From a virus, in IMG/VR virus record IMGVR_UViG_3300025083_000086, positions 1-40,706 of that record: DNA of 40,706 nt. One strand, 5' to 3'. Below the pieces are notes generated by a model that ran no database searches, had not been told where the DNA came from, and saw only the letters and a program-made list of their open reading frames with translations. Position 1 is the stretch's first letter. Every line of letters starts with the position of its first letter. Positions 6,703 through 39,801 of this stretch are shown in pieces. The position numbers were made by a program, and so were the translations under genes.

Positions 6703-7175
6703 TGTACCATATGTGGGACATGCACAACAGAACCACAGAAGAACAGGCAAAGAGAAACAGAATGACACAGCTAGTTGAACAACTTAAACGCCACGAAGGA
6801 TTGAGGTTAAAGCCATATCAATGCACTGCTGGAAAGCTAACTATCGGAATCGGACGAAACATCGAAGACATTGGCATTTCGGAAAGCGAAGCAGAAATGT
6901 TGCTGTCCAACGACATACAACGAGTGGTAACACAGTTGAAGGAAACCTTTCCGTGGACGCTGGACTTAGACGAGGTACGTTTTGCAGCTCTCGTCAACTT
7001 TACCTTCAACGTAGGGATAGGAACAACCAGCAAGTTCGTAAACGCAATGGCTCTGCTAAAGGGAGGAAACTTCGATATGGCAGCAGACGAGTTTCTGGAC
7101 AGTAGATGGGCTAAACAAGTAGGACAACGCGCTGTAGAGATTACAGAGCAAATCCGTACAGGAGAGTGGCAGTGA
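6702..7175 (+). CDS. Endolysin, T4-like lysozyme (GH24), catalytic Asp replaced by Cys
   Basis: The product degrades peptidoglycan at lysis. The motif HEGLRLKPYQCTAGKLTIGIG aligns with the T4 lysozyme active site. Glu is conserved, the residue nine later (Asp20 in T4) is Cys, and Thr26 is conserved, giving E-8-C-5-T instead of E-8-D-5-T. Cys at this place is known to be compatible with activity in this family. The C-terminal half has the usual RFAALVNFTFNVG and the Gly/Arg-rich end. No signal peptide is visible, so release needs the holin upstream. The start is uncertain: GTG 6702 overlaps the holin stop by one base, and ATG 6711, 6720 and 6762 are alternatives. 6762 gives the spacing to the catalytic Glu seen in T4 lysozyme. 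Confidence 0.88.
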   Translation: MYHMWDMHNRTTEEQAKRNRMTQLVEQLKRHEGLRLKPYQCTAGKLTIGIGRNIEDIGISESEAEMLLSNDIQRVVTQLKETFPWTLDLDEVRFAALVNFTFNVGIGTTSKFVNAMALLKGGNFDMAADEFLDSRWAKQVGQRAVEITEQIRTGEWQ

Positions 7176-7387
7176 CAGAAAAACAACAGATGGACACTTT
7201 GCACGAAGCTGTAACGCAAGAGCTACTGCTACGTGTACGAAGTGGGGAAGCCACAGCCAGTGAGCTATCAGTAGCTGTCAAATTTTTGAAAGACAATGGT
7301 GCTTCTCTTGATGCAATCATGGCAGAGAGTCCTATGGCAAACCTGTTAAACGATCTACCCTTTGATGTAGCAGAGAGTGTACAGTGA
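7172..7387 (+). CDS. Small terminase subunit, T7 gp18-like
   Basis: A 71-residue protein (MTEKQQMDTLHEAVTQELL). The start is GTG 7172, overlapping the endolysin stop as GTGA, with GGAG at 7161-7164 seven bases upstream; a GTG two codons earlier is less well spaced. Features are a helical N-terminus and the SGEATASELSVAVKFLKDNGAS segment, typical of DNA maturase A of T7-like phages. It should recognise concatemeric DNA and recruit the large subunit, whose start overlaps its stop (GTGA). Length and position match the family. Confidence 0.8.
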   Translation: MTEKQQMDTLHEAVTQELLLRVRSGEATASELSVAVKFLKDNGASLDAIMAESPMANLLNDLPFDVAESVQ

Positions 7388-9060
7388 CAAACATTCCAGA
7401 GCCTCTTAGAGACTTTAGGAACTTTACCTACCTAGTATGGCAGCATCTAGGACTACCAGAGCCTACTCCTGTACAGTATGACATAGCTAACTACCTACAG
7501 AGTAGTCCCAAGCGTAGCATCATTGAGGCTTTTCGTGGTGTAGGTAAGTCCTACATCACTGCTGCCTACGTGGTACATCAGCTATTGCTAAACCCACAGC
7601 TAAAGTTTATGGTTGTCTCTGCGTCTAAGGCACGTGCTGATGACTTCTCTACATTCACACAGCGTATCATTGTAGAGCTACCTATATGCCAGCACCTAGT
7701 TGCTAAAGAAGGTCAACGCTGGTCTAAGATAGCCTTTGATGTTGCACCTGCTAAAGCATCTGGTAGCCCCTCAGTGAAGTCTGTGGGTGTTACAGGACAG
7801 CTTACAGGTAGCCGTGCTGACATTATCATTGCTGATGACGTAGAAGTTCCTAACAACAGTATGACGCACATGATGCGTGAGAAGCTGTCAGAGACTGTCA
7901 AGGAGTTTGACGCTGTTCTCAAGCCTGATGGCAAAATTATCTACTTGGGTACACCTCAGAACGAGATGTCCCTATACAACGTACTACTAAACCGTGGTTA
8001 CGAGATGAGGGTTTGGCCTTCACGCTACCCTACCCTAGATCGCGCAGAGAAGGCGTATGGGGGCAGGTTAGCACCTTCGCTGTATGAAACCCTACAAAAC
8101 AAGCAAGAGGCTGTGTATGGGCTTCCTACAGACCCTAAACGGTTTGACGATGAAGATTTGATAGAAAGAGAGCTAAGTTATGGTCGAAGTGGTTTTGCTT
8201 TGCAGTTTATGCTGGATACTTCACTTTCTGATGCAAACAAATATCCGCTTAAACTAAGTGACCTACTAGTATACTCATGTGATAAAGACACAGCACCAGA
8301 GAAGATGGTGTATGGTGTTATGAAACCTATGCACGACTTGCCCAATGTTGGACTCTCTGGGGATAAGTTTTACGCCCCTGAGGACACGATAGGTCGGCAG
8401 AGGTACTCTGGTAGCATCTTAGCCATTGACCCCTCTGGTAGAGGCTCTGACGAGACTGCATACGCCGTTGTAAAGATGTTAAACGGTTTCCTGTATGTTG
8501 TAGATGCTGGGGGTGTTGAGGGTGGTTACACAGATGTAGCACTACAACACCTGACTGACCTAGCTAAGATACATCAGGTAAACATGGTTCTCATTGAGAG
8601 TAACTTTGGTGACGGTATGTTTACGGAGCTACTCAAGCCACACCTGCTCAAGAGCTATCCCATAGCTATGGAAGAGGTTAGGCACAATACACAGAAGGAA
8701 GCACGTATCATTGACACCCTAGAGCCTGTTATGAACCAGCATAGGCTTGTTATAGACCCTAAGGTTATTCAGAAGGACTATGACAGTGTACAGAATATGC
8801 CACCTGAGAAGGGCATTAAGTACATGCTGACGTATCAGATGACTAGGATTACTAGACAGCGAGGAGCATTGGCACATGACGACAGGCTTGACGTTCTTGC
8901 TATGGCAGTGCAATACTGGGTTGACCAAATGGCTGCTGATGCAGATACAGAAATCAGAATCAGAAAAGAAGAACTACTGGACAATGAACTAGAAAAGTTT
9001 ATGTCTCACCTGAATGTTTCTACCATAGAGCAGAAGCAGGAGGGCTGGTTACAGTTCTAA
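7384..9060 (+). CDS. Terminase large subunit, T7 gp19-like packaging ATPase/nuclease
   Basis: A 558-residue protein that packages concatemeric DNA into the prohead through the portal. The N-terminal ATPase has Walker A AFRGVGKS (about residues 49-56) and Walker B IIIADDVEV (about 145-153). The C-terminal RNase-H-like nuclease has AIDPSGRGSDETA (Asp near 347) and a late DDRLDVLAMAV (near 499), which supply metal-binding acids. The gene starts at GTG 7384 overlapping the small terminase stop. It is the last gene before the long noncoding region, as in T7, where gene 19 lies at the right end of the linear genome. Length is close to T7 gp19 (586). Confidence 0.95.
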   Translation: MTNIPEPLRDFRNFTYLVWQHLGLPEPTPVQYDIANYLQSSPKRSIIEAFRGVGKSYITAAYVVHQLLLNPQLKFMVVSASKARADDFSTFTQRIIVELPICQHLVAKEGQRWSKIAFDVAPAKASGSPSVKSVGVTGQLTGSRADIIIADDVEVPNNSMTHMMREKLSETVKEFDAVLKPDGKIIYLGTPQNEMSLYNVLLNRGYEMRVWPSRYPTLDRAEKAYGGRLAPSLYETLQNKQEAVYGLPTDPKRFDDEDLIERELSYGRSGFALQFMLDTSLSDANKYPLKLSDLLVYSCDKDTAPEKMVYGVMKPMHDLPNVGLSGDKFYAPEDTIGRQRYSGSILAIDPSGRGSDETAYAVVKMLNGFLYVVDAGGVEGGYTDVALQHLTDLAKIHQVNMVLIESNFGDGMFTELLKPHLLKSYPIAMEEVRHNTQKEARIIDTLEPVMNQHRLVIDPKVIQKDYDSVQNMPPEKGIKYMLTYQMTRITRQRGALAHDDRLDVLAMAVQYWVDQMAADADTEIRIRKEELLDNELEKFMSHLNVSTIEQKQEGWLQF

Positions 9061-9081: not shown

Positions 9082-9127
9082 TGTTAAACATACCATAGTG
9101 TATATTATATGTTTAACATGTTTAACA
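9082..9127. repeat. Inverted and tandem ATGTTTAACA repeats after terminase
   Basis: TGTTAAACAT at 9082-9091 is the exact reverse complement of ATGTTTAACA at 9109-9118. A second direct copy overlaps at 9118-9127 (9-nt period). The arms could form a 10-bp stem with a 17-nt loop. No T-run follows, so it is not a standard terminator. Three ATGTTTGACA variants lie on the opposite strand at 9274-9331. Six copies within 250 bp suggest a protein-binding array, either an operator or short repeats near a genome end like those of T7. Confidence 0.7.
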
Positions 9128-9196
9128 GTCTTTAACCTACTACTTACTACTTATGTATCGGTCATAAGAATGAGGCAGGAGTAAGATGGATGTATT

Positions 9197-9226
9197 TTGG
9201 TAAAAAAATCTGAGGGGGTGTATAAT
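9197..9226 (+). promoter_or_regulatory. Sigma70-like early promoter, + strand
   Basis: A -35-like TTGGTA at 9197-9202 (4 of 6), an 18-nt spacer and a perfect -10 TATAAT at 9221-9226. Transcription would start near 9233 and run rightwards into the early genes, as the host-polymerase promoters of T7 do. Confidence 0.5.
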
Positions 9227-9249
9227 AGTAATGAACGCGCGACACCCCC
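9202..9249 (-). terminator. Intrinsic terminator-like hairpin, minus strand
   Basis: On the minus strand an 8-bp perfect stem GGGGGTGT/ACACCCCC with a 20-nt loop is followed after five bases by seven T (9208-9202). The long loop and the gap before the T-run make it less than ideal. Confidence 0.45.
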
Positions 9250-9256
9250 GCGCCAC
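9202..9256 (-). ncRNA. Candidate minus-strand small RNA of about 55 nt
   Basis: A perfect minus-strand sigma70 promoter (9291 to 9263) should start RNA near 9256. The transcript would immediately contain GGGGGTGT (9249-9242), a 20-nt loop and ACACCCCC (9221-9214), then TCAGA and seven T residues (9208-9202). That is a promoter followed at once by an intrinsic terminator, so the unit could make a short hairpin RNA and nothing else. It overlaps the + strand promoter and the first bases of its transcript. No expression evidence exists here. Confidence 0.4.
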
Positions 9257-9262
9257 TCCTTT

Positions 9263-9291
9263 ATTATACCACGTGTCAAACATTCTGTCAA
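9263..9291 (-). promoter_or_regulatory. Perfect-consensus sigma70 promoter, minus strand, with embedded repeats
   Basis: On the minus strand TTGACA (9291-9286) and TATAAT (9268-9263) are separated by exactly 17 nt, a full consensus match. One ATGTTTGACA copy abuts the -35 (9301-9292) and another lies in the spacer (9283-9274), the classical placement of repressor operators. It points toward the terminase gene although no minus-strand gene is present. Confidence 0.55.
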
Positions 9292-9331
9292 TGTCAAACA
9301 TTTGACGCCAATTCTTTGACATGTCAAACAT
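9274..9331 (-). repeat. Three ATGTTTGACA repeats (TGTCAAACAT on + strand)
   Basis: Exact copies at 9274-9283, 9292-9301 and 9322-9331. The second and third share a longer context (TGTCAAACAT, then TTGACGC or CTGACGC). The third overlaps a perfect 14-bp palindrome, TTTGACATGTCAAA, at 9315-9328. They are one base different from the ATGTTTAACA set at 9082-9127. Confidence 0.75.
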
Positions 9332-9770
9332 CTGACGCGCCAGTGCTGCATATTTGCAACATGTGTGACATTTTTAACACACTCTGTCTGTCTCTCTCTA
9401 TCTGTTCTTGTTCTGTTCATGTCCAACATGTAATACACCTTATAATATATATAAACGCATGTTCTCTATTTGTTCTTTTTTCAACATTTTTTACATTTTT
9501 TTCATTTTTGGGGTTGTGTTTATTTTTTGCCTATGCCATTATCTAATCATCAAACGAACACAAGCCTAATCACTGGCGACAATGTACTTGGTACAGATAC
9601 AAGGTGAGATAAAGCGGAAAGGTGGCTAGCCAGCATAGTTTGATAAGAGACTAAAAAAGACTTGACTAACTAATACGACTAAGACTAGACTAAGAGAATA
9701 GAAAGACACATACGCTTGATAGCGACAAGACAACCCAAGTTTGTGGAAGGGCAGGCTACAGACCCTATAA

Positions 9771-10127: not shown

Positions 10128-10829
10128 ATGAAACTAAAGCTACTAGGCGTGGGTAATAACGCCAAGACAGTGAAGGGTGATGGCAGTGAATACTTGACTG
10201 CTATCCTGTACCTTGCGCCAGCCGATACAGTGGACGGAATCAATGTCTGTCCAATGGCAGTGCTGGCAGGTTGTAAGGCAGGGTGCCTATACAGTGCAGG
10301 GCGTGGAGCTATGAATAGTGTACAGGCAGCACGACAGCGCAAGACTATCTTATGGCGTGACTTCCGTGAGGTATTCATTGCCGACTTGATACAGGACATC
10401 ACCAAGTTCAGGGCGTATTGTATCAAGAAGGGCATCAAGCCAGTGGTTAGGCTCAATGGGACTAGCGATATACATTGGGAGCGTTATGGCATCATGGAGC
10501 AGTTCCCAGACGTACAGTTCTATGACTATACCAAAGACATCAAGCGAGTGCGTAAGGCACTGCCTGACAACTATCACTTGACACTGAGCTACAGTGAGGC
10601 TAGTACTAGGTACAGTAACATGGTGCTGGATCAGATGTGTAAGCATCAGGGACACAACATGGCAGTAGTGTTCAGGGACAAGGACAAGATACCTAAGACC
10701 TACATGGGCTTCAAGGTAGTAGATGGTGACAAGGATGACTTGCGCTTTCTTGACCCTAGAGGTGTAGTGGTGGCACTGTATGCTAAAGGCAAGGCAAAGC
10801 AGGACACCAGTGGCTTTGTAATTGGATAG
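10128..10829 (+). CDS. GP88-like protein of unknown function
   Basis: A 233-residue protein with a strong AGGAGG ribosome binding site. The N-terminal third carries a CP-x(6-7)-C-x(3)-C pattern (VCPMAVLAGCKAGCLYSAGRG) and then QAARQRKTILWRDF. This matches the flavour of the Gene product 88 family of phage proteins, whose spaced cysteines may bind metal. The centre has VVRLNGTSDIHWERYG, and a DYTKD motif lies near residue 140. Members are found in mycobacteriophages and marine phages; the role is not established, to my knowledge. Position in the early block and the elaborate leader suggest an early-expressed regulator or enzyme, which is inference. Confidence 0.65.
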   Translation: MKLKLLGVGNNAKTVKGDGSEYLTAILYLAPADTVDGINVCPMAVLAGCKAGCLYSAGRGAMNSVQAARQRKTILWRDFREVFIADLIQDITKFRAYCIKKGIKPVVRLNGTSDIHWERYGIMEQFPDVQFYDYTKDIKRVRKALPDNYHLTLSYSEASTRYSNMVLDQMCKHQGHNMAVVFRDKDKIPKTYMGFKVVDGDKDDLRFLDPRGVVVALYAKGKAKQDTSGFVIG

Positions 10830-12589: not shown

Positions 12590-13387
12590 TTGGATGTAAC
12601 TTTAGAAACAGACAAAGACCTGTTTGAACGACAGCTTGAACTAGAGACAGAGATGCTAACAGGTGGTATCCAGCGTTTCAGGAAGGCTAGAGACAGGTCA
12701 ATAGATAGAGGTATGGAATCCCACACGGCACATGGTAGAGCCATCGTGTCAAGGATTGTAGACACAGTAGCAGATGGGTTGAGGGAATACCTAGACAACC
12801 CAAGCAACAAGTCCAGAGACATTGCGTGGAAGCGCATCAAGGATATGGACGTAGAACAAGTGGCATACCTGTCAGTGGTATCGCTAGTCGATAGCATCAG
12901 CAGGAAGAACACACTGCTTTATGTGGCGCGTACCATTGGTGCTAACGTAGAGATACAGGACAGGCTTGAGCGATGGATACACAGCGAGGGTGACGTAGCT
13001 AAGAACACCATCAAGCAAGCAATGAAGAAAGCCTATGGTGCTAGACGCTATGGCCTGACCAACAAGATGAACAAGGATGGGTACAAAGAGAGCGAGTGGC
13101 AGAAGTCAGAGCGTGTGCATGTTGGGTTCAAGATGGTTGACCTCATCATCCAGCACACAGCTATTGTAAAGCTGGACACACAACAGACAGAGCGTAAGCG
13201 TAGGGCTACCTATGTCATACCTACTGAGGGTACGCTTGAATGGATTACTGCTTTCAACGAATACATAGAGACATCAAGGCCACGTTACCTACCCTGCATC
13301 ATACCACCTAAACAGTGGACAGATGTGCGTGGTGGTGGGTATCATGGTCACGACATTGACGAGCTACCAATAGTGAGGCGCAAATGA
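12590..13387 (+). CDS. T7-type RNA polymerase, N-terminal domain as a separate gene
   Basis: A 265-residue protein equivalent to residues about 25-307 of T7 RNA polymerase. Matching landmarks are an early RFRKAR (T7 EARFRKMF), VAYLSVVSLVDSIS (T7 VAYITIKTTLACL), the HVGFKMVDLIIQ segment (T7 HVGVRCIEMLIE) and a final PCIIPPKQWTDVRGGGY (T7 PCVVPPKPWTGITGGGY). In T7 this domain binds the promoter's upstream part and the nascent RNA. The start is TTG 12590, with AAGGGGG seven bases upstream, an unusual start codon. The ORF stops in an ATGA overlap with the gene for the remainder of the enzyme. No sequence is missing at the junction. Confidence 0.88.
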   Translation: MDVTLETDKDLFERQLELETEMLTGGIQRFRKARDRSIDRGMESHTAHGRAIVSRIVDTVADGLREYLDNPSNKSRDIAWKRIKDMDVEQVAYLSVVSLVDSISRKNTLLYVARTIGANVEIQDRLERWIHSEGDVAKNTIKQAMKKAYGARRYGLTNKMNKDGYKESEWQKSERVHVGFKMVDLIIQHTAIVKLDTQQTERKRRATYVIPTEGTLEWITAFNEYIETSRPRYLPCIIPPKQWTDVRGGGYHGHDIDELPIVRRK

Positions 13388-15030
13388 GCTTGAAGAAACA
13401 TCTGAATCGGTTGGGTACTCAAGACCTGACACAAGAGTACGCCTGTCTCAATGCTTTGCAGGACACAGAGTGGCGCATCAATAAGAATGTACTTGACATT
13501 ATCCGTAATCTGTGGGATAACGGACAGGAATGGGGCAAGCTACCAGCGAAGGAAGACACACCACTACCAGTGTATCCCTTTGGTAAAGAGCCTGACGAGA
13601 TGACTGATGGAGAGAGGGAAGAGTTTCGTGCGTGGTCACGCAAGCGTAATGCTATCTACTCCCAAAACAACCGTAGCGTGAGCAAGCGCATACAAGTGGA
13701 GCGAACACTACAGATAGCAGAACAGTACGCTAAGTACGACAGGTTCTACTATGTGTGGCAGAATGACTTTCGTTCACGCAAGTATGCAAGCAGCACGTTC
13801 CTCTCTCCTCAGTCAGCAGATTGGAGCAAGGCTCTGTTAGAGTTTGGCTACCCTGTTAAGATTAATAATTGGGATGACGCACGTTGGCTGTGCATACATG
13901 GTGCTAACCTGTATGGTAACGACAAGGTAAGTCTTAACGACAGAGAACTGTGGGCGTGGGACTTTGCAGAAGAAGCACACAGGATTGTTGACAACCCATA
14001 CGACAACCAGTTATGGTTGGAAGCAGACAAGCCTTATCAATTCCTAGCGTGGTGCTTTGAGTTGTCAGCCCTTGTCAAACAGGGGTGGGGGTTTGAGACA
14101 CGCCTACCTGTGTCAGCAGATGGGTCATGTAATGGACTGCAACATCTGTCAGCCATCCTACTGGATGAGCAGGGAGCTAGGGCAACTAACCTTGTACCAT
14201 CTGACCTACCTCAAGACATCTACACAGAGGTAGCAGAGGCTACAATCGCCAGTATCAAGGCAGAGGATACAGAGCTAGGGCGTAAGTGTCTTGCCTTTGG
14301 TATCGACAGGAAGCTAGCCAAGCGTCCTGTTATGATTGTACCCTACAGTGGTACACGCCACGCCTGTCGTGCCTATATTGAGGAAGCTATCAACGACAAG
14401 ATCAAGGATGGCACACCCAATCCGTTTGGTGATGACCTCTTTGAAGCTAGCAATTATCTAGCTGGTCATGTGTGGGATGCTATCAGCAGTGTGATTGTAT
14501 CAGCACGTAAGGTCATGGACTATGTAAAGAATGTTGCAGATGTTTACGCACAGATGGGACAGCACATGGAGTGGGTCACACCAACTGGTTGGGTTGTACT
14601 ACAGCAGTACAGCCAGACACAACAGAAGCGCATCAAGACTCACATCAATGGTGAGGTGGTATCACTATCCTTTCCTAAGGAGAAAGAGAACACAGTACAC
14701 AGGCACAGGACAGGGCTGGGTGCATCACCTAACTTTATCCACAGCCTAGATGCAGCAGCAATGACCAAGACTATTAACCAAGCCTCCAAGCTAGGCATCC
14801 ACGACTATGCAATGGTGCATGACAGCTACGGCACACACAGTAGCATGATGCCATTGCTTAGTGAGGTACTGCGCGAAGAGTTTGTTAAGATGTATGAACA
14901 GCATGATGTGTTGACAGAGTTGAGACAACATGCTATCATAACACTAGGCACTGAGGATGTACCTCAACCACCTTCTTGTGGCAGCCTAGACCTACGTAAC
15001 GTATTGAAATCAGACTATTTCTTTGCCTGA
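13384..15030 (+). CDS. T7-type RNA polymerase, polymerase domain as a separate gene
   Basis: A 548-residue protein equivalent to T7 RNA polymerase from about residue 308 to the C-terminus, including thumb, palm and fingers. Catalytic motifs are intact: motif A VSADGSCNGLQH (Asp near 246), motif B RKLAKRPVMIVPYSG (near 308-322) and motif C VHDSYG (Asp near 479). The C-terminal KSDYFFA matches T7 ESDFAFA. The specificity loop (VLQQYSQTQQKRIKTHINGE) differs from T7, so promoters should differ. Start ATG 13384 lies in an ATGA overlap and has GAGG at 13375-13378, five bases upstream, so it is a proper initiation site. Together with the upstream gene it should form a two-chain enzyme transcribing the middle and late genes. 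Confidence 0.93.
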   Translation: MSLKKHLNRLGTQDLTQEYACLNALQDTEWRINKNVLDIIRNLWDNGQEWGKLPAKEDTPLPVYPFGKEPDEMTDGEREEFRAWSRKRNAIYSQNNRSVSKRIQVERTLQIAEQYAKYDRFYYVWQNDFRSRKYASSTFLSPQSADWSKALLEFGYPVKINNWDDARWLCIHGANLYGNDKVSLNDRELWAWDFAEEAHRIVDNPYDNQLWLEADKPYQFLAWCFELSALVKQGWGFETRLPVSADGSCNGLQHLSAILLDEQGARATNLVPSDLPQDIYTEVAEATIASIKAEDTELGRKCLAFGIDRKLAKRPVMIVPYSGTRHACRAYIEEAINDKIKDGTPNPFGDDLFEASNYLAGHVWDAISSVIVSARKVMDYVKNVADVYAQMGQHMEWVTPTGWVVLQQYSQTQQKRIKTHINGEVVSLSFPKEKENTVHRHRTGLGASPNFIHSLDAAAMTKTINQASKLGIHDYAMVHDSYGTHSSMMPLLSEVLREEFVKMYEQHDVLTELRQHAIITLGTEDVPQPPSCGSLDLRNVLKSDYFFA

Positions 15031-21367: not shown

Positions 21368-21687
21368 TGAACCTACACGATTACCAGATGCAAGCACTGA
21401 AGACAGCAGTGTACCCTAAGAAGTATTCTATCTCCTACCCTGCGCTGGGTCTAGCCGAAGAAGCAGGAGAGGTGGCTGGCAAGATTGCTAAGATGATGCG
21501 AGATGATATATCTCTTGTTGACCAAAAGAAAAAGATTGAGGCAGAGATGGGTGACGTACTGTGGATGTTAGCAGCACTAGCCCATGACTGTGGCCTGTCC
21601 CTACAAGAGATAGCAGAGAAGAATCTAATAAAACTAAACGCACGACAGTCATCAGGTACTCTGCATGGCGAGGGAGATAATAGATGA
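21364..21687 (+). CDS. MazG-like nucleotide pyrophosphohydrolase
   Basis: A 107-residue protein with the all-alpha NTP-PPase pattern: GLAEEAGEVAGKIAK near residue 29 (EExxE metal site) and KKIEAEMGDVLWMLAAL near 56 (ExxD). One MazG domain only, the usual size in phages. It hydrolyses nucleoside triphosphates or alarmones to monophosphates. In phages this may clean the dNTP pool or alter the host stringent response. Its stop overlaps the RNR start (ATGA), so dNTP production and cleanup are made together. Confidence 0.88.
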   Translation: MMNLHDYQMQALKTAVYPKKYSISYPALGLAEEAGEVAGKIAKMMRDDISLVDQKKKIEAEMGDVLWMLAALAHDCGLSLQEIAEKNLIKLNARQSSGTLHGEGDNR

Positions 21688-23582
21688 TAAGCAACTACCT
21701 ACCAACAGACTACCAAACCTTCATTGCTACCAGTAGGTACGCACGATGGCTAGAGGACGAGAACAGGCGAGAGACTTGGGTTGAAACAGTACAACGCTAC
21801 ATCAACTACATTGCCACTACTGGTCTATCTGCTGATGATCTGGAAGAGATTGAAGAGGCTATCCTAAACCTAGAAGTAATGCCTAGTATGAGAGCGTTGA
21901 TGACAGCAGGGGTAGCGGCAGACCGTGACAACACCTGTATCTACAACTGTAGCTACCTACCAGTAGACCATATACGTGCCTTTGATGAGGCTATGTTTAT
22001 CCTACTGTGTGGTACAGGTGTAGGGTTTAGTGTTGAGCGTCAGTCTATCGCCAAGCTGCCTACTATTCCAGAGACTTTGGTTAAAGATACTCGCGCTATA
22101 AAGGTAGGGGATAGTAAAGAAGGTTGGGCTACAGCCCTACACTCCCTCATGTCTACCCTATACTCAGGCGTCATACCTAGCTGGGACTTGTCTGCTATTC
22201 GTCCAGCAGGTGCGAGGCTAAAGACCTTTGGTGGTAGAGCGTCAGGACAGGAGCCATTGAATGACCTGTTCAATTTTGTGGTAGAAAAATTTAAGGCAGC
22301 AACAGGACGTAAGCTTACTAGCATTGAGTGTCACGACATTATGTGTAAGATTGGCGAGGTTGTGGTGGTGGGTGGCGTACGCCGTTCAGCTATGATTAGC
22401 TTGTCCAACCTAAGTGATGGGCGTATGGCACACGCCAAGTCTGGTAGCTGGTGGGAGAACGAGGGTCAACGTGCGTTGGCTAATAACTCTGTAGCCTACA
22501 CAGACAAGCCTGACATGGAAGGGTTCATGCGTGAGTGGTTGTCACTCGTTGAGTCTAAGTCTGGTGAGCGTGGTATCTTCTCACGTGTCGCAGCAGACAA
22601 GCATGTAGAGATGAACGGACGTAGAGAGACAGGGCATGAGTGGGGAACTAACCCATGTTCTGAGATTATCCTACGGCCTTACCAGTTTTGTAATCTAACA
22701 GAGGTAGTGGTACGTCAAGGTGATGACCTAGATAATCTAAAGCGTAAGGTACGTCTGGCTACCATACTTGGTACAGCACAAGCCACCTTCACTAAGATGC
22801 CATACCTACGTGACATCTGGAAGAAGAACACAGAAGAAGAACGCTTGCTTGGCGTATCTCTGACAGGTATCATGGACAACTACCTACTGTCTAAGACTAC
22901 TGACAGTAAGGTGTGGCTCAAAGCCATGAAGCAGACAGCCATTGATACTAATGCAGAGTATGCTGAGAAACTAGGTATCCCTGTATCAGCAGCCATCACT
23001 TGTGTAAAGCCATCAGGTACAGTGTCACAGCTTGTTGATAGTGCTAGTGGTATTCACGCAAGACACAGCGAATACTACATACGTACTGTACGTGGTGACA
23101 ACAAAGACCCACTTACACGTTTTATGCAGGATACAGGTATCCCTGCTGAACCATGTGTAATGAAGCCCGACTCTACCACAGTGTTTAGCTTCCCAACTAA
23201 GTCACCATCTGGTGCTGTTACACGTAACGACATGACTGCATTGGAGCAACTAGAACTGTGGAAGAACTACGCATTGAACTGGTGTGAACACAAACCATCA
23301 GTAACTATCACAGTAAAGGATGCAGAGTGGATGGCAGTAGGTGCGTGGGTATATGAAAACTTTGACATCTGCTCTGGTATCTCATTCCTACCACACAGTG
23401 ACCATACATATGCACAAGCTCCTTATCAAGATATAGATAAGGAAACATATGAAGAACTCAAGAAACAGATGCCTACTTCTATTGATTGGTCAGCTTTGTC
23501 TCTTTATGAGAAGGAAGATACAACAACAGGTGGGCAAACTTTGGCGTGTACTGCTGGTGCATGTGAGCTAGTAGACATCTAA
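21684..23582 (+). CDS. nrdJ: Class II (cobalamin-dependent) ribonucleoside triphosphate reductase
   Basis: A 632-residue monomeric-type class II reductase. Landmarks are RDNTCIYNCSYLPV near residue 80 (redox Cys), FILLCGTGVGFSVE, VGGVRRSAMISL, the active-site NPCSEIIL near 322 (Asn, Cys, Glu), KPSGTVSQLVDSASGIHARH near 434 and a C-terminal thiol pair in ACTAGACELVDI. It needs adenosylcobalamin to make deoxynucleotides, so the host must have or import B12. There is no NrdA/NrdB pair, glutaredoxin or thioredoxin gene, so reduction depends on host thiols. It is shorter than the Lactobacillus enzyme (739), probably with reduced allosteric regions. Confidence 0.93.
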   Translation: MISNYLPTDYQTFIATSRYARWLEDENRRETWVETVQRYINYIATTGLSADDLEEIEEAILNLEVMPSMRALMTAGVAADRDNTCIYNCSYLPVDHIRAFDEAMFILLCGTGVGFSVERQSIAKLPTIPETLVKDTRAIKVGDSKEGWATALHSLMSTLYSGVIPSWDLSAIRPAGARLKTFGGRASGQEPLNDLFNFVVEKFKAATGRKLTSIECHDIMCKIGEVVVVGGVRRSAMISLSNLSDGRMAHAKSGSWWENEGQRALANNSVAYTDKPDMEGFMREWLSLVESKSGERGIFSRVAADKHVEMNGRRETGHEWGTNPCSEIILRPYQFCNLTEVVVRQGDDLDNLKRKVRLATILGTAQATFTKMPYLRDIWKKNTEEERLLGVSLTGIMDNYLLSKTTDSKVWLKAMKQTAIDTNAEYAEKLGIPVSAAITCVKPSGTVSQLVDSASGIHARHSEYYIRTVRGDNKDPLTRFMQDTGIPAEPCVMKPDSTTVFSFPTKSPSGAVTRNDMTALEQLELWKNYALNWCEHKPSVTITVKDAEWMAVGAWVYENFDICSGISFLPHSDHTYAQAPYQDIDKETYEELKKQMPTSIDWSALSLYEKEDTTTGGQTLACTAGACELVDI

Positions 23583-39400: not shown

Positions 39401-39801
39401 AGATTATGTCCTTCTCTATGATGCTGGGAAGCATGATGTACATGTCAAGGTCTTACCTTAACTCTATGGGACGTAGTGACCAAGACGAGTACATGAAGAG
39501 GCGTATGGAGACAGCTAACCTTCTACAAGGAGCATTGAGCCAGATTGGTGCAGCTTCTATGTTTGGTTACATCTACCAGCTAACTACTGGTGCTATGGAC
39601 GGTAACACTAATGCCCTGACACCTGCTGGTGTATCTATGGGTATTGGGGCTATCAAAGGTGCTGGTGACATGTGGGATGCTCTAGGTGAGGGTGAACTAA
39701 GTGAGACTGAATTACGTAGTCTTCTTCGCATTTTTCCCTTTACATCTCTATATGGAGTTAGGCAGATACTTAATGCTACCGCAAATGCGGCTACAAATTA
39801 A
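36433..39801 (+). CDS. Internal virion protein D, T7 gp16-like, without N-terminal transglycosylase
   Basis: A 1122-residue protein (MAEQTFLKDMEELGFGG). It has Ala-rich hydrophobic segments near residues 135-180 (AAMLFSDVLDPADAAIMAATAAG), an AGGVGGTELAALELL-like region, and NYAPRIFNRGNIRRL near 475. A conserved C-terminal part follows (SFFQFLSFPMASMEQQAMRLG, then YGVRQILNA). These fit the large core protein that forms the inner channel for DNA ejection. T7 gp16 has 1318 residues and starts with a soluble lytic transglycosylase domain. That domain is absent here, and a lysozyme-like domain is found in the neighbouring core protein. A promoter-like 14-mer lies inside at 38836. Confidence 0.88.
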   Translation: MAEQTFLKDMEELGFGGAEPSPLTATVSDLALKAARKQAEAEREDLGFWEMVGMRQLDAGTIFSATALLDRPEAGEQEALTDEIIEELTGGITDERAITRILEAAGSKGVNYGRAIAREVRQTIETNQALSEQGLTGAAAMLFSDVLDPADAAIMAATAAGVSAAAPPLAPVTAPVAAAGAKGYRLFSKFKNNKKYLAMAAGVGGTELAALELLRSQSKYDITGGDIILAGTIGAAGGAGFTKLGQVMYRRSVVQQALRKQADGEPLTATETAILRQNDDEILAQKFRQMAHDNDDFGVDELAEITGGSGLTRKDFTQMTPEELAAVPRQRGVGAGVRGFLSAFVETKNSDDGIVRWLGDGLGLNSTGNKVGADGRVTAVNFGALEQRDTLVMRYRLSIANPIKELREQYTSRTNISQADWNVLVSRQLRMPNPAADPAVVKAANIYKTKMKELAQQAVDANVAGFDVGTISRIQNYAPRIFNRGNIRRLREGTLKDNADGSLNAAWGQLAEAAIRKGQPNIETTVKKALEKKRKGKAVSAKMVKDYITRISNGYIKGVLDPSYNQRSNAKMANGDFDVEDFTNVMKAEGFGDDDIELILDVLTADAKVKGHKRALPRMILDEATEITVTGSDGKPFQLRFHNLLEENMENLFDSYVFQLSGSIGLARNGIDTNEVGSSFETIISKISNQGDAARQKEIESLRYMYESTNGRFAYRSDLTETQKQTLRRVRELSFMANMGMSGMAAIMELSNAIFEYSFSTLIKTVPMYGKLIRDSRTGQLSSRVAREMEAATGVGGDGIVSKVTTMRSRLEGDVSEGIQIDGEITKFDELLGKGRIFTSIASGLQGVTDVLRRVTLYNYASEWAYAHKAGKVAMSPIKREQLGITDEMAQRIRNQIDEHADYLPDGTLNGLNADRWTDSDAADIFFASARREATQAVQEMNAGSVNARLRGEVGKSFFQFLSFPMASMEQQAMRLGVRFANGDQMQVAKIMSFSMMLGSMMYMSRSYLNSMGRSDQDEYMKRRMETANLLQGALSQIGAASMFGYIYQLTTGAMDGNTNALTPAGVSMGIGAIKGAGDMWDALGEGELSETELRSLLRIFPFTSLYGVRQILNATANAATN
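38836..38849 (+). promoter_or_regulatory. Candidate phage RNA polymerase promoter motif, copy 4 (intragenic)
   Basis: TCTAAAGTTACAAC inside the gp16-like gene (codons S-K-V-T-T), followed by TATGAGAAG. It lies about 960 nt before the tail-fibre start, so it could feed fibre and lysis gene expression. Being in coding DNA, chance or codon constraint cannot be excluded. Confidence 0.4.

Follow-up and report, generated by a model that had tools for sequence, protein, structure and literature searches.

The DNA examined here lies directly downstream of the terminase genes in an IMG/VR record of a marine T7-like phage, and the question which it raises is what a consensus host-type promoter, directed along the minus strand, is doing at this place in the genome. 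The original prediction, made for positions 9202–9301, was that of a self-contained minus-strand unit in which this promoter, together with operator-like repeats, a hairpin and a T-run, gives rise to a noncoding RNA of about 55 nt; a device acting at the genome end was listed among other options. The results presented here make it highly probable that the locus is a T7-type maturation site with a direct terminal repeat (DTR) beginning at 9221, and that this repeat carries an outwardly directed, near-consensus sigma70 promoter which is a counterpart of the A0 promoter of T7. Of the options listed, it is the genome-end device that was borne out, as the stretch corresponds to the predicted left genome end and its DTR.

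The window, by which we mean the whole stretch of 40,706 nt that was analysed, contains a T7-like gene set (TerS, TerL, head-tail connector, capsid, helicase-primase and RNA polymerase) and resembles marine roseophages and pelagiphages at the DNA level; the phage collection that was searched showed no close isolate from this clade. The terminase pair, which adjoins the site of interest, is comprised of the genes for the small subunit (7166–7387, plus strand; PHROG 891, E 1.7e-12) and the large subunit or DNA maturase B (7384–9060, plus strand), the latter recognized by its DNA similarity to annotated DNA maturase B/TerL genes, and the maturation (cis) site is located 143 bp downstream of the end of the TerL gene. 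Relatives were collected both via TerL and via a pattern search, and as they share kinship the counts reported for them are not independent, a factor which the tree and spacer comparisons address only in part. Elsewhere in the window, a ribonucleotide reductase gene (21684–23582) shows a match to the B12-dependent insertion domain. The two ends of the contig (1–882 and 39825–40706) are near-identical copies, with small differences, of the start of a tail-fibre-like gene, and the record may represent a circular assembly that was imperfectly closed or may contain two variants.

On the plus strand, the sequence beneath the proposed hairpin is a conserved element consisting of AAAAATCTGAG(G/A)GGGT(A/G), the predicted cut, TATAATA and then, at 24–25 nt, CCCCC. 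Its left half (AAAAATCTGAGGGGGTG; 9204–9220, plus strand) is near-invariant in the relatives, is present in many other T7-like contigs, and lies at the end of the unique region of T7, BA14, and FE44. The distal half is a C-run (9245–9249, plus strand) located 24 nt inside the predicted end, and its spacing is kept in the relatives. The run of seven T on the minus strand (9202–9208, seven A on the plus strand), which was correctly noted in the original prediction, overlaps the conserved A-run of this element. The motif as a whole is near-invariant downstream of TerL in nearly all relatives that extend far enough, with the C-run mostly 24–25 nt past the predicted cut and at 23–26 nt from it in 81/82 clade sequences, and it is also found in pelagiphages and roseophages. 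It is present in a single copy in the window, for which reason its identification as a promoter for the phage RNA polymerase was rejected.

Among annotated phages, the motif was traced to BA14 and FE44, and in both it abuts the annotated terminal repeat, the repeat starting at motif position 18 (from 39623 in BA14 and from 39668 in FE44). The T7 record has no annotated repeat feature, and we take its DTR to start at 39778; the sequence preceding this repeat ends in AAAAATCTGAGTGACTA, the repeat opens with TCTC, and the C-run is 25 nt in. The same start base is obtained from the repeat length of 160 bp (PMC3737178) in combination with the 39937-bp genome. With a looser pattern, another 65 T7-like sites that extend far enough downstream were retrieved, and 64 of these have the C-run 23–26 nt from the cut, a spacing that the looser pattern itself requires. 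Based upon these comparisons, the region 9204–9249 is very likely a T7-type terminase maturation site, at which the unique sequence of the right end joins the DTR, and the terminase very likely cuts between 9220 and 9221, which would make 9221 the left end of the genome. The cut is predicted at this position from related phages, the DTRs of T7, BA14, and FE44 starting at the corresponding base of the motif.

The DTR is predicted to extend from 9221 to 9399 (179 bp), with the left border placed by the T7, BA14, and FE44 anchors and the right border, between 9399 and 9400, by the conserved succession of TCTCTCTCT and ATCTGTT; the repeat is present once in the contig. The ATCTGTT sequence (9400–9406, plus strand), of which this is the sole copy in the window, is the same as that just past the DTR in T7-like phages and is annotated as the concatemeric junction in BA14. 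In BA14, FE44, and T3 the right border reads GTGTCCCT followed by ATCTGT, and the T7 repeat ends in the same GTGTCCCT. In most of the relatives the TCTCTCTCT border lies 124–210 nt from the cut, and ATCTGT occurs at the border in 38/68 sequences, the background in the flanks being 0.03 per 160 nt. The predicted length is near that of the repeats of T7 (160 bp), BA14 (194 bp), and T3 (231 bp).

The concatemer junctions of T7, T3, BA14, and FE44 resemble the one described here in the cut context (AAAAATCTGAG...TA before the cut and T after it), in a C-run about 24–26 nt inside, and in a DTR of 160–231 bp that is followed by ATCTGT(T). The interior of the DTR is unrelated to that of these four phages, and the TATAATA at the repeat start, which opens the repeat in 66/82 clade sequences, is typical of this clade. 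The same maturation motif and C-run spacing follow the terminase region in the Roseobacter phages CRP-125 and CRP-114 and the pelagiphages HTVC131P and HTVC304P, but unlike the window, no outward promoter matching at least 10/12 consensus positions was found near the cut in these phages. With a two-part site of this kind (AAAAATCTGAG...TA and T about the cut, with the C-run 24–25 nt inside), which T7 has as well, genome ends can be predicted from sequence alone for a large uncultured clade of marine T7-like phages. Upstream of the DTR, at 9083–9138 (plus strand), are short repeats (TGTTTAACA/TGTTAAACA; repeat family D1, inverted repeats I2, I4, and I8), which resemble the short repeats that flank the T7 DTR.

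These results bear directly upon the proposed small RNA. A discrete 55-nt antisense or decoy RNA, made from a promoter, a hairpin and a terminator, has in its favor the perfect promoter and the downstream stem followed by seven T, and on uncut DNA the RNA would contain both stem and T-run. The stem (GGGGGTGT/ACACCCCC) is indeed present, but it has a 20-nt loop, is separated from the T-run by 4 nt, and was not listed in a terminator scan of the window. The fold of the minus-strand RNA (−14.7 kcal/mol, z −1.31) lies inside the shuffled range, 20 of 200 shuffles folding as well, so that the stable, above-chance stem with a U-run directly after it that marks an intrinsic terminator or small RNA is not seen here; scans with Rfam and for tRNAs also gave no match. 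Comparison of the relatives, which had been suggested as a check for covariation, likewise went against the stem: in 25/82 sequences a G to A change makes the left arm GAGGG instead of GGGGG, whereas the C-run, present in 81/82, is unchanged, and there is no compensation. The left arm in T7 is GTGAC, both halves of the site are retained in promoter-less T7-like phages, and the cut splits the two arms on mature DNA. Because of the lack of covariation, the stability within the range of chance and the separation of the arms by the cut, an RNA stem was rejected. As judged from these comparisons, the arms are conserved as DNA and not as an RNA stem, the hairpin and T-run belong to the plus-strand DNA site, and a small-RNA gene at this locus is very improbable; the idea of a self-contained unit is lost with it.

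The same DNA site accounts for a plus-strand early promoter (TTGGTA-18-TATAAT; 9197–9226) which the minus-strand unit had been thought to face and overlap. This candidate was rejected, since it is the terminase cut site: the hexamer in its −35 position is not conserved, being exactly TTGACA in only 1/82 sequences, the AAAAATCTGAG just downstream is near-invariant, and the repeat begins with TATAATA. Rightward early host promoters are likelier farther in, at about 390–440 bp and close to where A1 lies in T7. TTGACA-led sites occur about 371–443 bp from the cut in 16 relatives, and a promoter scan of the window gave a putative early host promoter (TTGACT-18-TAGACT; 9662–9691, plus strand) in a T7 A1-like position. 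The first sizeable early gene (10128–10829) encodes a GP88 family protein (PF17338).

The minus-strand promoter itself was confirmed. It reads TTGACA-17-TGn-TATAAT (9263–9291, minus strand; −35 at 9291–9286, TG at 9271–9270 and −10 at 9268–9263), with the TG one base ahead of the −10, and among the 78 promoter-like sites in the window it is the sole one that matches at all 12 positions. By a first-order Markov estimate, 0.023 such sites are expected per window, and 0.0005 when a spacer of 17 and the TG are also specified. The promoter is located inside the predicted DTR, 42–70 bp from the left genome end, through which it faces outward. A minus-strand site with at least 10/12 matches and the TG is present at the equivalent position in 24 of the 77 distinct relatives whose sequence is long enough, compared to a mean of 0.16 in dinucleotide shuffles and one on the plus strand. 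The TG is present in every site with at least 10/12 matches, and all 24 carriers keep a spacing of 17–18 nt. For pairs of carriers with diverged spacers (at most 75% identity, mean 0.48), the identity is 0.97 for the −35, 1.00 for the TG, and 0.90 for the −10, versus 0.48 for the spacer; as sites were picked by their −35 and −10 matches, those two values are partly built in, but the TG and the bias in strand and position are not. In view of the conservation of the TG and this bias despite a spacer identity of 48%, the sequence is likely a minus-strand sigma70 promoter that is under selection.

The distribution of this promoter is patchy. On the TerL tree the trait shows about 13 changes (gains or losses), and the promoter therefore comes and goes; since a local repeat (the TTTGACA word) provides its −35, it may arise easily. 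In promoter-less relatives (e.g., L007, L011, and L017) the interior of the DTR contains another word (GCCTAACATTCTTA / TTAGCCATGCCTAA) in place of TTTGACA, and lineages seem to have exchanged one filler word for another, as though to match a partner protein. The proposal that an outward promoter is a general feature of T7-like DTRs was rejected, since a 10/12 site is found in only 1/65 of the other T7-like repeats. A leftward promoter is present just outside the DTR in 14/46 non-carriers versus 0/21 carriers (Fisher p 0.003), but these hits cluster among near-copies, the shuffle mean for all sequences pooled is 6.8 (maximum 12) and there were 8 hits on the plus strand, and hence a substitute leftward promoter in relatives without the DTR one is suggestive only. 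Both the patchy distribution and the membership of the −35 in a repeat would suit a neutral by-product, in which −35 boxes in the DTR originate from the TTTGACA word and promoters without any role come and go by recombination, and the A0 sites of T7 and T3 likewise lie in repeat-rich DNA. However, all 24 carriers keep the TG and the 17–18 nt spacing at 48% spacer identity, features that drift from shared ancestry would not preserve, and we regard this explanation as unlikely.

The promoter is accompanied by the repeats that were described as operator-like. Copies of the ATGTTTGACA type are present at 9274–9283, 9292–9301, and 9322–9331, and a palindrome, TGTCAAACATTTGACG (TGTCAAA-TG-TTTGACA; TGTCAAACATTTGACA), abuts the −35 at 9292–9307; the TTTGACATGTCAAA palindrome and a second TGTCAAACATCTGACG copy were found at 9315–9337 by repeat analysis. 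A palindrome of the form GTCAAA-TG-TTTGAC beside the −35 is present in 21/24 promoter carriers versus 9/53 non-carriers, and this form is rare outside the repeat. The repeats and their tie to the promoter are thus upheld, and the palindrome may be regarded as a candidate operator; no regulator gene for it was found among the early ORFs that were scanned with PHROGs.

The known promoter which most resembles this one is A0. In T7, a promoter annotated as “E. coli promoter A0 (leftward)” is present at 224, 64 bp beyond the 160-bp DTR, whereas in T3 the −35 and −10 of A0 are on the minus strand within the 231-bp DTR. A0 in both phages shares with the window promoter a host-type sequence, the minus strand, a location at the left end and an outward direction. 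The annotated A0 sites are weak by consensus (TTGACT-17-TAGGCT in the T7 region and TTGACT-13-TAGGCT in T3), whereas the window promoter matches at 12/12 positions and has an extended −10; it also differs from them in being only 42–70 bp from the end and in having a palindrome at the −35. By its place and direction, the window promoter is likely the near-consensus counterpart of A0 of T7 and T3. With regard to shared ancestry, the position and direction agree, and the rarity of 10/12 sites in other T7-like DTRs noted above also has to be considered. In searchable papers we found mentions of A0 but no stated role for it.

The maturation site, the borders of the repeat and selection on the outward promoter are supported by the sequence comparisons, and we infer from there the firing of the promoter and its role. 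The terminase would cut between 9220 and 9221, leaving 9221 as the left genome end. On incoming DNA, transcription by host RNA polymerase would begin near 9256 and reach the end of the template after about 36 nt, and the promoter spacing and the predicted end thus define a putative 36-nt run-off RNA (9221–9256, minus strand) on the mature left end, where run-off would precede synthesis of the second arm of the stem. On concatemers that have not yet been cut, leftward transcription would cross the maturation site and meet head-on the phage RNA polymerase bound for the ATCTGTT junction signal. The role which we tentatively favor, as a possibility and not as a probability, is an early accessory one, in which the first-entering DNA would capture host polymerase in an outward orientation, diverging from the early promoters that lie about 440 bp farther in. 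It is followed in our ranking by the absence of any role and by a road-block at the packaging junction.

In the latter, host polymerase on the leftward promoter would stand in the way of phage RNA polymerase pausing at the concatemer junction, so that the pause would last longer and help in the recruitment of terminase. The promoter indeed has the maturation site on one side and the ATCTGTT junction signal on the other, and it is directed against phage transcription. T7 RNA polymerase has been reported to pause at the concatemer junction, bringing in gp18/gp19 (PMC3276506, PMC5569994), and in T7 host polymerase has been modelled as a road-block, with the junction pausing thought to recruit these proteins (PMC5569994, PMC3709561, PMC3276506). 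However, in T7 the host polymerase has already been shut off when packaging begins, and host transcription from the early promoters A0–A3 is reported to need shutting off if infection is to succeed (PMC3709561); additionally, the promoter is missing from most relatives. A programmed road-block is thus, in our estimate, rather improbable.

The direction of the transcript would also fit a primer for DNA synthesis toward the end, which could help in duplication of the DTR or completion of the left end, and T7 origins use transcripts as primers. As the transcript would start within the DTR at 36 bp from the end, most of the repeat would not be copied, and such priming appears highly unlikely. A broader interpretation, which we consider doubtful, is that a selected and regulated outward end promoter with a palindromic operator makes host RNA polymerase a part of the terminus, either by loading it on the first-entering DNA or by forming, at the packaging junction, a timed road-block. 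If this were true, it would give a function to A0 of T7-like phages; the comparative data suggest that an A0-like leftward promoter can be under selection, and its role is therefore testable.

Lastly, the phage RNA polymerase in this window has an unusual organization. The T7-type enzyme is encoded (12590–15030) by two genes which overlap by ATGA, one for a 265-aa N-terminal part (Pfam RPOL_N) and the other for a 548-aa catalytic part (Pfam RNA_pol). The two parts are in different frames in 18/18 relatives in which both were found, whereas in two rhizobial phage records the polymerase is a single gene. Among the matches listed, the identity to the best phage records is about 40%. Judging from the gene sequences, this would be a single-subunit polymerase that is naturally in two pieces.
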